The notes under the pieces are model-generated. The model did not search any database. It was not told where the DNA came from and saw only the letters and a program-made list of their open reading frames with translations. Below, one piece after another: positions 57,942 to 61,889 of a DNA stretch of 64,000 nt. The position numbers and the translations under genes were made by a program. The stretch spans positions 2,232,001 through 2,296,000 of the forward strand of contig NZ_CP035632.1 of NCBI RefSeq assembly GCF_008807075.1. Reading direction: 5' to 3'. Every line of letters begins with the position of its first letter. Position 1 is the stretch's first letter. This stretch comes from Synechococcus sp. RSCCF101 (lineage in GTDB: Bacteria; Cyanobacteriota; Cyanobacteriia; PCC-6307; Cyanobiaceae).

Positions 57942-58703
57942 TTGGTTGTGCCTCAGGCGACAGAGCAGGGCGTGGTGCGCGCCCCTGTTGCTCCCTCTCA
58001 TCAGGCCCCGGCGCGGCTGTCGGCAAGGCGCCTGAAGACCGGCGTCCAGGTGCTGGTGGCCGTGCTGCTGCTCGGGCTGGCCGCCACTCTGCTGCAGGCC
58101 TACGGAGTGGGCCCACTGCGGGCGCAGGTGGAGCAGATGGGCCTCTGGGCGCCGCTGCTGCTGGTGGCCCTGCGCATCACCAGCGTGGTGATCCCGGCGC
58201 TGCCCGGCACGGCCTATTCGATTCTGGCCGGGGCACTGTTCGGGTTCCGCCAGGGCCTGGTGCTGATCTGCCTGGCGGATCTGATCTCCTGCTCCCTCAG
58301 CTTTCACCTCTCACGCCGCTACGGGCGCGGGCTGGTGACCCGCCTGGTGGGGGCCCGCTTCATGGGCCGGGTGGACGGCCTCAGCCGCCAGCACCTGGAA
58401 GGAAACGTGGTGTTGATGACCGCGTTCCTGATGAGCGGATTCTTTGATTTCGTCTGCTATGGCGTGGGCCTGACCCGCACGGCCTGGCGCCGCTTCCTGC
58501 CGGCTCTGATCGTGAGCATCCTGCTCTCCAATCCACCGATCGTGGCCCTCGGCGCCGGGGTGCTCGATGGCGGCAAGCGCCTGCTGGGCTTCGCCCTGCT
58601 GGGCACCTTCGCCCTCGCCCTGCTGACCGGGTGGATCAGAGGCCGCCGGTCACCGCCCAGCGCAGCAGCAGCAGCACCTGGCCTCCCGGGCCCCGGCCGC
58701 TGA
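57942..58703 (+). CDS. TVP38/TMEM64 (DedA-like) membrane protein
   Basis: 253 residues from TTG 57942 (a GTG at 57948 is also possible). TM helices at about 38-60, 75-95, 100-125, 175-200 and 210-230; VIPALPGTAYSILAGALFGF and SFHLSRRYGRGLVTRLVGAR match the SNARE-associated/VTT-like domain of DedA and TVP38 proteins, proposed lipid scramblases. Its 3' end overlaps the end of the convergent Hli gene by 68 bp. Confidence 0.88.
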   Translation: MVVPQATEQGVVRAPVAPSHQAPARLSARRLKTGVQVLVAVLLLGLAATLLQAYGVGPLRAQVEQMGLWAPLLLVALRITSVVIPALPGTAYSILAGALFGFRQGLVLICLADLISCSLSFHLSRRYGRGLVTRLVGARFMGRVDGLSRQHLEGNVVLMTAFLMSGFFDFVCYGVGLTRTAWRRFLPALIVSILLSNPPIVALGAGVLDGGKRLLGFALLGTFALALLTGWIRGRRSPPSAAAAAPGLPGPGR

Positions 58704-58869
58704 TCAGCTCGCCGATCAGGGCCGCCGCGAAGCCGAGCATCGCCACCCGGCCGTTCAGGAGTTCCACCCCGGCCAGGGCCTGCACATTCCAGGGTCGCGG
58801 CGTCGTCATGCTGCGGCCGAACGGCTCCACCGGCTCATACACGAAGGACTCCTGGCTGGGCTCGCTCAT
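58636..58869 (-). CDS. High-light-inducible (Hli) chlorophyll-binding protein
   Basis: 77 residues with one TM helix holding the Hli signature (VELLNGRVAMLGFAAALIGE: Glu-x2-Asn-Gly-Arg-x-Ala-Met). Binds chlorophyll and carotenoid and protects photosystem II assembly under high light; clearest cyanobacterial marker in the window. N-terminus polar. Overlaps the TVP38 3' end by 68 bp, tail to tail. Confidence 0.93.
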   Translation of the reverse strand: MSEPSQESFVYEPVEPFGRSMTTPRPWNVQALAGVELLNGRVAMLGFAAALIGELISGRGPGGQVLLLLRWAVTGGL

Positions 58870-58960: not shown

Positions 58961-60820
58961 TCAGTAGTCCGCCCCCTGCATGGCCATGCTCTCGGCGAAG
59001 CGCACCACCTGGTTGCGGCCCGATTCCTTGGCACGGTACAGGGCCAGATCGGCGCTCTTGATCACTTTCCAGAAGGAGCTGGCGTCTTCAGGAAACAGGC
59101 TCACGCCCACGCTCACGGTCTTGCTGAAGCGCTCCTTGCCGGCCGTGAACACCTTCTTCTCGAAGGCCTCGCGGATCTTTTCGCCCACCATCATCGCGCC
59201 GTTCTCATCGGAGTTGTAGAGGAGCACGATGAACTCCTCGCCACCGAAGCGGATCGGGATGTCCGCTTCGCGGATGCACTCGTTCATGGTCTCGGTGAGG
59301 CCCCGGATCACCACATCGCCGATGTCGTGACCGTAGGTGTCGTTCACCATCTTGAAGAAATCGATGTCGAGCATCAGCACGCCCAGGCTGGTCTTGGCGC
59401 GCATCGCCTGGGGCAGGGCCTTGTCGATGTATTCCTCCAGGTATTTGCGGTTGTAGAGACCGGTGAGCGGATCGCGGCGCGACTGCTCGGTGAGCAGCGC
59501 GGTGAGCAGCTGGCTCTCGATCACCGGCTTGGCGGCATCGAGGTAGCTGAGGATCGTGGGCACCACCCGCCGGATCCGCGTGACTTCACCCGCCTCGGCC
59601 GGCCGGATGGCGATCAGCAGCCCCACCTCCTTGTTGATCGAAAACGGCACGCACACATAGGCCGCATCGCTGCTCTGGGTGCAGTTGTCGCAGACGTGGT
59701 TGAAGTCGTCGGAGTAGATCACCGTCTGCGTGCGGTAGGCCCGGCATTCGTTGATGTCGGCATCCACGGCCGCTGAATGCCACATGCCCGGGTCGCTGGC
59801 GTGGACCAGGGCACGCGTCTTGCGTTCGGAGCTGGTCTCGTAGATAGCGAAGTGCTGGATCGCCAGCTTGTCGTGAATCACGTAGGCGATGCGGTTGTAG
59901 ACCTCGTGCTTGGAGCGGTCGAATTCGATCGTGCGTTTGAACTTGTAGATGTCCGCCAGCTCGCTGATGATCTCCTTCGAGCGGATCAGGGGATTCTTGT
60001 TGTAGAGGCTGCTGTCCTGTGTGAGCAGGGTGGTGATCTTCTCGTCGATATCAGTGATGGTGCCCTGCATCTTCGAGTAGAGCTCGTTCTGCCGTTTCGC
60101 CACCTCGCCGCCCTCGTCGGTGAGGGAGGTCTGGACCAGGCCGGAGAAATCACCGTCGCTGGCTTTCCCGATCGAGGTCTGGAGGGAGCTGAACAGCTCC
60201 AGGTAGGGATGGATAAAGTGATTGGTCACCAGGATCGCGATCGCCAGGAACAGCAGCGAGGCTCCCGCGATCGGCAGGATGGTGATGATGCCGGTGTTGC
60301 GGGCGTCGCTGATGTTGAACACCATCGAGAGGGCGCCCAGCACGTCGCCCTCACTGGCGGTGTGGCATTGCAGGCAGTTGGGCGTCCCGAAGGCCGAGGC
60401 CACGTAGGGAATGGTCACGCGCAGGCTGGCCTCCTGCGGGCTTTCATCCAGCACCTCCGCCCGTTCGCCGGTGTTGAGCACCTGCACGTCGACATCGTCG
60501 CGCGGCACTTCGTTGTACATGCTGGGGCCCATCTCATCGATCACGCTCTGGGAGCGCACCAGCCAGAGGTCGCGGATGTTCTGGGTCTGGCTGATCTGAA
60601 CCAGATAGAACTGGATCTGATCCTCCGTCCAGCCGTTCACCATGTGTGAGGTGAGGGCATCGCGCACCAGCTCGGCGGTGAGGCTCGATTTCTGCTTGGC
60701 GCTCTCGATGCCGTAGCTGCGGAAGTTGAGCGCCACCACCGTGGTGATGATCAGCATCAGCACGGTCAGCGTGACCCCGATCGCCGTGAGGATCTTCCGC
60801 TTGGCGTTCATGGCGGCCAC
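58961..60820 (-). CDS. Membrane diguanylate cyclase with a periplasmic c-type haem motif (sensor-HAMP-GAF-GGDEF)
   Basis: 619 residues. TM helix 1 (about 12-32); periplasmic domain (about 35-180) with the haem-attachment motif CLQCH (CxxCH) in FGTPNCLQCHTASEGDVLGA, DUF3365-like; TM helix 2 (ILPIAGASLLFLAIAILVTN); HAMP; a GAF-like domain (about 300-430) with extra Cys (ECRAYRT, HVCDNCTQSS); then GGDEF with GGEEF and an RxxD inhibitory site (READ). The single haem motif suggests sensing of redox, oxygen or NO by a bound haem c; synthesis of c-di-GMP would follow. The ligand is inference. Confidence 0.9.
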   Translation of the reverse strand: MAAMNAKRKILTAIGVTLTVLMLIITTVVALNFRSYGIESAKQKSSLTAELVRDALTSHMVNGWTEDQIQFYLVQISQTQNIRDLWLVRSQSVIDEMGPSMYNEVPRDDVDVQVLNTGERAEVLDESPQEASLRVTIPYVASAFGTPNCLQCHTASEGDVLGALSMVFNISDARNTGIITILPIAGASLLFLAIAILVTNHFIHPYLELFSSLQTSIGKASDGDFSGLVQTSLTDEGGEVAKRQNELYSKMQGTITDIDEKITTLLTQDSSLYNKNPLIRSKEIISELADIYKFKRTIEFDRSKHEVYNRIAYVIHDKLAIQHFAIYETSSERKTRALVHASDPGMWHSAAVDADINECRAYRTQTVIYSDDFNHVCDNCTQSSDAAYVCVPFSINKEVGLLIAIRPAEAGEVTRIRRVVPTILSYLDAAKPVIESQLLTALLTEQSRRDPLTGLYNRKYLEEYIDKALPQAMRAKTSLGVLMLDIDFFKMVNDTYGHDIGDVVIRGLTETMNECIREADIPIRFGGEEFIVLLYNSDENGAMMVGEKIREAFEKKVFTAGKERFSKTVSVGVSLFPEDASSFWKVIKSADLALYRAKESGRNQVVRFAESMAMQGADY

Positions 60821-60932: not shown

Positions 60933-61889
60933 TCAGGAATGGACCCAGTCCACCCGGATCGACTTGCGGCTGTTGAGGTAGCGGTCGATCGCCATGGCGG
61001 CAATGCAGCCGTCGGAGGCGGCCACCACGGCCTGCTTGAAGGGGGTGTTGCGGATGTCGCCGATGGCCCAGACCCCGTCCACCGAGGTGGCCATGCAGTC
61101 GTCGACCTTCACGCCGCCGTCCTCGTTCACCTCCACCTGGCCGCCGACGAAGTCGGTGATCGGCTTGGAGCCGGCCATGTACACGAAGACCCCATCCACG
61201 GCCAGATGCGTGGGCTCCTCCTCCTGGCGGGCCTTCACCTCCACCCCGGTCACACCGCTGTCGTCGCCGCCGATCTCCAGCAGCCGGGCCCGGTTCCAGT
61301 GGCGCACGTTGGAGGTGGCGAGCAGGTCCTGGGCGTGGTGGTCGTCCGCCGCCGGTTCCTTGTTGGTGATCCAGTGCACGGTGGAGGCGAACTTGGTCAG
61401 CACCTGGGCCTCCTCCACCGCTTCGCGGTTCACACCCACCACCGCCACCTCGCGGTTGCGGTAGAAGGCGCCGTCGCAGGTGGCGCAGTAGCTCACGCCC
61501 CGACCGAGGAACTCGGCCTCGCCCTTGAAGGAGGCGGGGCGGCCCATGGCCCCGCTGGCCAGCACCAGGGCGCGGGCCTTGAAGGTGCCGTCGGGGGTGT
61601 AGACGGTCTTCATCTCGCCGCCCACATCGACGCCGAACACCTGGGCGCGGCGGTAGTCGGTGCCGTAGGTCACGGCCTGATCGCGCATCAGGGTGAGCAG
61701 ATCCTCGCCGCTGATGTCGGTGGGCACGCCGGGATAGTTGGCGATCTGGTGGGTGATCGCCAGAGCCCCCACCGAGGGGTTCTTGTCGAGGATCACCGTC
61801 TTGAGATCGGCCCTGGAGGTGTAGAGCGCGCAGGAGCAGCCGGCAGGGCCGCCGCCCACGATCACGACATCCGATTCAATGGTCTCCAA
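60933..61889 (-). CDS. Thioredoxin-reductase-like flavoprotein lacking the usual NADPH site
   Basis: 318 residues. FAD-binding start VVIVGGGPAGCSCALYTSRA and C-terminal VDGVWAIGDIRNTPFKQAVV are as in TrxB; the redox pair is CATCDG (CxxC). The NADPH-domain marker GGGDSA is replaced by VVGVNREAVEEA and no HRRxxxR is present (WITNKEPAADDHH instead). Such changes occur in ferredoxin- or flavin-dependent variants (DTR, DDOR) described in cyanobacteria. So the electron donor is probably not NADPH. Substrate unknown; thioredoxin or another disulphide is likely. Confidence 0.85.
   Translation of the reverse strand: METIESDVVIVGGGPAGCSCALYTSRADLKTVILDKNPSVGALAITHQIANYPGVPTDISGEDLLTLMRDQAVTYGTDYRRAQVFGVDVGGEMKTVYTPDGTFKARALVLASGAMGRPASFKGEAEFLGRGVSYCATCDGAFYRNREVAVVGVNREAVEEAQVLTKFASTVHWITNKEPAADDHHAQDLLATSNVRHWNRARLLEIGGDDSGVTGVEVKARQEEEPTHLAVDGVFVYMAGSKPITDFVGGQVEVNEDGGVKVDDCMATSVDGVWAIGDIRNTPFKQAVVAASDGCIAAMAIDRYLNSRKSIRVDWVHS

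Follow-up and report, generated by a model that had tools for sequence, protein, structure and literature searches.

The experimentally known haem inputs to diguanylate cyclases are b-haem domains in the cytoplasm (globin, PAS, and H-NOX), according to part of a 2022 census of c-di-GMP inputs, and the tables in that part of the census contain no haem c enzyme (PMC8846402). One 2026 preprint describes fusions of haem c sensors to signalling outputs, including GGDEF domains, as the sCache_heme family, in which its authors also place GSU0582 and GSU0935 of Geobacter sulfurreducens (PMC12889525). A member from Pseudomonas azotoformans, which has transmembrane helices and a HAMP domain, is a tight NO binder (koff 6.25e-4 per s) that does not form a stable oxy complex (PMC12889525). 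The haem of GSU0935 is visible in crystals, with Met60 as its sixth ligand in one protomer; Met60 also ligates the reduced haem and gives way to CO or NO (PMC8396549). In both Geobacter proteins reduction favors ligation by Met, and they are thought to signal through a redox-linked gain or loss of this ligand (PMC8396549).

The window analyzed here, a stretch of 64,000 nucleotides from Synechococcus sp. RSCCF101, contains a gene for a membrane enzyme, P0001, which we interpret as a haem c-sensor diguanylate cyclase. The gene lies on the minus strand, as do all of its features given below, and occupies 58961..60811 (ATG at 60811, stop at 58961), encoding 616 amino acids. The open frame extends to a GTG at 60820 (58961-60820, 619 amino acids), but the ATG is the likelier start, since homologs begin in the same alignment column (MNLKxKT). 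Hydropathy places a first transmembrane span at about residues 7-29 (60725..60793) and a second at about residues 172-198 (60218..60298). Between them lies a predicted extracytoplasmic Cache/PAS-like haem c sensor domain (about residues 30-171; 60299..60724), with the CLQCH haem c attachment motif at residues 146-150 (60362..60376), so that the motif should face the periplasm or lumen. A CxxCH arises by chance in 0.15% of shuffles of P0001. The second span is followed by a degenerate HAMP linker (about residues 199-255; 60047..60217), a GAF-like domain with several Cys residues (about residues 290-430; 59522..59944), and a GGDEF catalytic domain (residues 446-601; 59009..59476).

The GGDEF domain (PF00990) is the sole Pfam domain recognized in P0001, at 153.6 bits against a curated cut-off of 23.8 (E=4.9e-45). 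It carries a GGEEF active-site motif (residues 523-527; 59231..59245), and an RxxD product-inhibition site (residues 514-517; 59261..59272) sits five residues ahead of it, the normal I-site spacing. The intact GGEEF with RxxD and the CLQCH between the two spans, both proposed in the preliminary description, are borne out. Its HAMP and GAF-like assignments stood in part: both HAMP (PF00672) and GAF fall under Pfam detection in P0001 itself, but among 13 aligned members Pfam recognizes HAMP in 12, over the same columns, and gives a weak GAF match in two. The linker retains P202, GDF at 220-222, and DE at 232-233. A single-sequence AlphaFold model of P0001 was poor (pLDDT 36), and assignment of a PAS/Cache-like, swapped-dimer fold like that of GSU0935 therefore rests on sequence comparison.

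The sensor domain has no counterpart among Pfam or NCBIfam models, and a search of NCBIfam yielded no gene-family name for it. P0001 alone as a query gave no matches among genome and viral contigs, and alignment-based viral scans returned either no matches or only unrelated GGDEF domains. Clear relatives first came in the form of an Azospirillum chemoreceptor and of an Aeromonas protein having the order TM-CxxCH-TM-HAMP. The former, the sole match of a second genome-contig scan, served as the center for a search of Pseudomonadota, in which a sensor-domain profile built from three sequences matched 91 of 329 genomes. The matches that were opened were of two sorts: chemoreceptors of about 530-550 amino acids, and proteins of about 620-650 amino acids that align with P0001 over their whole length. 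The haem c domain of P0001 also occurs in proteobacterial chemoreceptor-length proteins (L040, L045, L046, L049, L054, and L063), and this domain, which lacks a Pfam model, could be made the basis of a new family. Two kinds of match were set aside: the flagged paralog L012 (281-601) is a different protein that matches mainly in GGDEF, and weak cyanobacterial matches to the first profile proved to be DUF3365-HAMP proteins or HAMP regions and not orthologs.

Identity between P0001 and the 12 full-length proteobacterial homologs is 32-34%. Invariant among these are R31, E47, R50, Met57 (60641..60643), TIP at 133-135, N145, C146, C149, H150, G155, V157, and G159, as well as the RxxD and GGEEF motifs. 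Conservation of the CxxCH in orthologs, on which the preliminary description had let its haem reading depend, was therefore found throughout, and Met57, C146, C149, and H150 remain invariant once chemoreceptor homologs join the alignment. This invariance is to be read with the selection in mind, as the seeds of the ranking profile already had both CxxCH and Met and the best-scoring matches were those inspected.

The only solved structure matched by the profile over the whole domain was 3b42, the sensor of GSU0935, with an E-value of 0.16 using three sequences and 0.03 using ten. A direct comparison of the sensor-domain profile with GSU0935 by hhalign aligned 103 columns at about 20% identity (E 1.9e-6). 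Its score of 39.7 exceeded those of all 100 shuffled controls (best 29.6), in which the CxxCH segment was kept and the sequence outside it shuffled. In this alignment, Met57 of P0001 falls on residue 26 of the 3b42 chain, which is Met60 (Cys140 being chain residue 106). GSU0582 itself was not matched in the profile comparison. PDB matches to cytochromes c3 and c555 were not taken as homology, since they cover mainly the CxxCH segment.

The relation to the wider family is looser. PF11845 (Tll0287-like/sCache_heme) matched neither P0001 nor the 12 GGDEF homologs at E-values up to 1, although one chemoreceptor relative matches it at E 0.0019. Against cyanobacterial DUF3365-HAMP and stand-alone Tll0287 proteins the profile aligned only locally, over the CxxCH and the next strand (47 columns, probability 79%). 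Judged by these alignments, the sensor domain belongs with that of GSU0935, and any place it has in the sCache_heme family is a remote one.

The c-haem reading of P0001 is well supported at the sequence level by the invariant CxxCH and candidate Met, by the kinship with GSU0935, and by the presence in the genome of ResB, part of the cytochrome c maturation machinery. We propose, with good though not complete confidence, that P0001 is a membrane-anchored diguanylate cyclase driven by a Met/His-switched, Cache-type haem c sensor that responds to external redox state or NO. The enzyme would be dimeric, with one covalent haem c in its extracytoplasmic domain, attached through thioethers to Cys146 and Cys149, with His150 as the predicted fifth ligand and Met57 as an exchangeable sixth (axial) ligand. 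When the iron is reduced, Met57 would be bound and the haem low-spin; when the iron is oxidized, or when NO or CO binds, Met57 would be released. The resulting shift of N-terminal helices may pass through the second transmembrane span, the degenerate HAMP, and the GAF-like domain to alter GGDEF dimerization, so that c-di-GMP synthesis would track external redox state or NO, in whichever direction, while the RxxD site would confer product inhibition. P0001 thus probably uses a covalent extracytoplasmic haem to set the c-di-GMP level. Counting against this explanation are the low identity to the sampled relatives, the HAMP that falls under detection in P0001, the poor structure model, the choice of homologs by a profile that favors CxxCH and Met, and, as regards origin, the native GC3 and the failure to find a proteobacterial donor.

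The preliminary description had named redox state, oxygen, or NO as the signal. By analogy with the published relatives, P0001 should read the first or the last of these via the predicted ligand Met57. The oxygen option appears to be the weakest, since the published relatives bind NO and CO or respond to redox, and the one linked to signalling forms no stable oxy complex (PMC12889525, PMC8396549); on this analysis, redox state or NO rather than O2 is the best reading.

A narrower version in which redox state alone is the signal is credible, if short of probable. Here, the domain would sense electron transfer from the periplasmic or thylakoid-lumen side, reporting the state of the electron-transport chain and binding no gas in vivo. 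Its host, an oxygenic phototroph, has lumenal electron carriers, and the invariant Met is a candidate sixth ligand. The same Met switch is linked to redox in GSU0582 and GSU0935, which have potentials of -156 and -251 mV, respectively (PMC8396549). At potentials so low, however, the haem would be mostly oxidized in an oxygenic phototroph.

That NO alone is the signal, with redox merely setting the ferrous state needed for NO binding, is possible but somewhat doubtful. The domain would then be a gas sensor like the sCache_heme domain of P. azotoformans, whose tight NO binding and lack of a stable oxy complex fit such a role (PMC12889525), and GSU0582 and GSU0935 take up NO in both redox states (PMC8396549). 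Yet the P. azotoformans protein is distant from P0001, given that PF11845 does not match the domain and the DUF3365 profile matches only the segment from CxxCH to the next strand, while the two Geobacter proteins are themselves thought to be redox sensors (PMC8396549).

A second input could lie on the cytoplasmic side. Four Cys residues are invariant in the GAF-like region of the 12 homologs. P0001 has three of these (Cys356, Cys374, and Cys387), with His345 in place of the first and an extra Cys377; His345 and Cys377 are peculiar to P0001. A putative metal or Fe-S site in this Cys-rich domain is possible. It is unlikely, however, that P0001 integrates redox from two sides, with haem c reading the periplasm or lumen, the GAF-like Fe-S or metal site reading the cytoplasm, and both gating one cyclase.

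It is very unlikely that P0001 is degenerate or unregulated, left over from a horizontal transfer and lacking a working input. The long branch that separates P0001 from all homologs, the HAMP under detection, and the His in place of the first GAF Cys would fit such a relic, but the frame is open over its full length, all catalytic and haem-site residues are retained, and GC3 is 0.90, like that of neighboring genes. Least probable of all is a CxxCH that forms a regulatory disulfide and holds no haem, as in thiol-switch phosphodiesterases, E. coli PdeC (CSS motif) being one: periplasmic disulfide switches do control c-di-GMP enzymes, as that part of the 2022 census describes (PMC8846402), but the His of the CxxCH and the distant Met are as invariant as both Cys residues, and the domain is related to that of GSU0935, with its crystallographically visible haem (PMC8396549).

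The combination of domains had been suspected to be uncommon in picocyanobacteria, and the survey agrees. With a single-sequence search, the sensor was found in one of the 300 family genomes, and among 386 genomes of the phylum Synechococcus sp. RSCCF101 was the only convincing match. The ten-sequence profile likewise found it in 1 of 300 family genomes and in 1 of 252 genomes of the class, again only Synechococcus sp. RSCCF101. Contamination is an unlikely source of the gene: the genome is a single contig, 98.1% complete and 0.77% contaminated, and the reductase encoded upstream shares 76-81% identity with its counterparts in those family members that carry one. As the type is common in Pseudomonadota and occurs in one sampled cyanobacterium, acquisition from a source other than cyanobacteria is the most likely origin of the gene. 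Its GC3, however, is native. In a tree, P0001 falls outside all sampled homologs on a branch whose length does not allow a donor to be named, and no proteobacterial donor was found among these sampled homologs.

The reductase is a thioredoxin-reductase-like FAD protein (60933-61889, minus strand), encoded 121 bp upstream of the cyclase gene and in the same orientation. The reductase gene of two relatives that were examined adjoins genes that we take, by recognition, to be sbtB-like and sbtA-like; neither was seen beside the reductase gene in RSCCF101. Directly downstream of the cyclase gene is a small chlorophyll a/b-binding-like (HLIP-type) gene (58636-58869, minus strand). The genome, of a picocyanobacterial family, has 25 GGDEF matches in total in 2.98 Mb. 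It also encodes a separate, stand-alone Tll0287-like haem protein (L001, at genome position about 702333-702803), which matches PDB 5B82 at E 2.9e-52.

The sensor domain, which occurs in about a quarter of the sampled Pseudomonadota while being dark to Pfam, makes it possible to ask directly if c-di-GMP responds to redox state or NO outside the cytoplasm. Through the copy in RSCCF101, such control of c-di-GMP would extend to an oxygenic phototroph.

Set beside known systems, P0001 is a new member of a kind already known, unusual in its host and in its want of a domain model. Among the closest are the proteobacterial GGDEF proteins of about 620-650 amino acids (e.g., L048, L056, and L066), which share its TM - haem c - TM - HAMP - GAF - GGDEF architecture from end to end along with the invariant motifs, but have a fourth GAF Cys where P0001 has His345, and a detectable HAMP. 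The sCache_heme/DUF3365/PF11845 proteins likewise carry an extracytoplasmic Cache-type CxxCH domain on signalling outputs that include GGDEF (PMC12889525), but PF11845 does match that family, its GGDEF/EAL fusions included, unlike P0001. Stand-alone Tll0287 of Thermosynechococcus (PDB 5B82) resembles the predicted domain in its single c-type haem and Cache/PAS-like fold; it differs in its Cys/His ligation (PMC12889525), in its strong match to PF11845, and in having neither a second transmembrane span nor a signalling output. GSU0935 (PDB 3B42) and GSU0582 (PDB 3B47) share with P0001 a single periplasmic CxxCH domain between a first transmembrane span and a TM2-HAMP unit, and GSU0935 also a Met in the N-terminal helical part, the axial Met60 corresponding to the candidate ligand Met57. 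Where these two Geobacter proteins feed an MCP signalling domain, P0001 has a GAF-GGDEF output.
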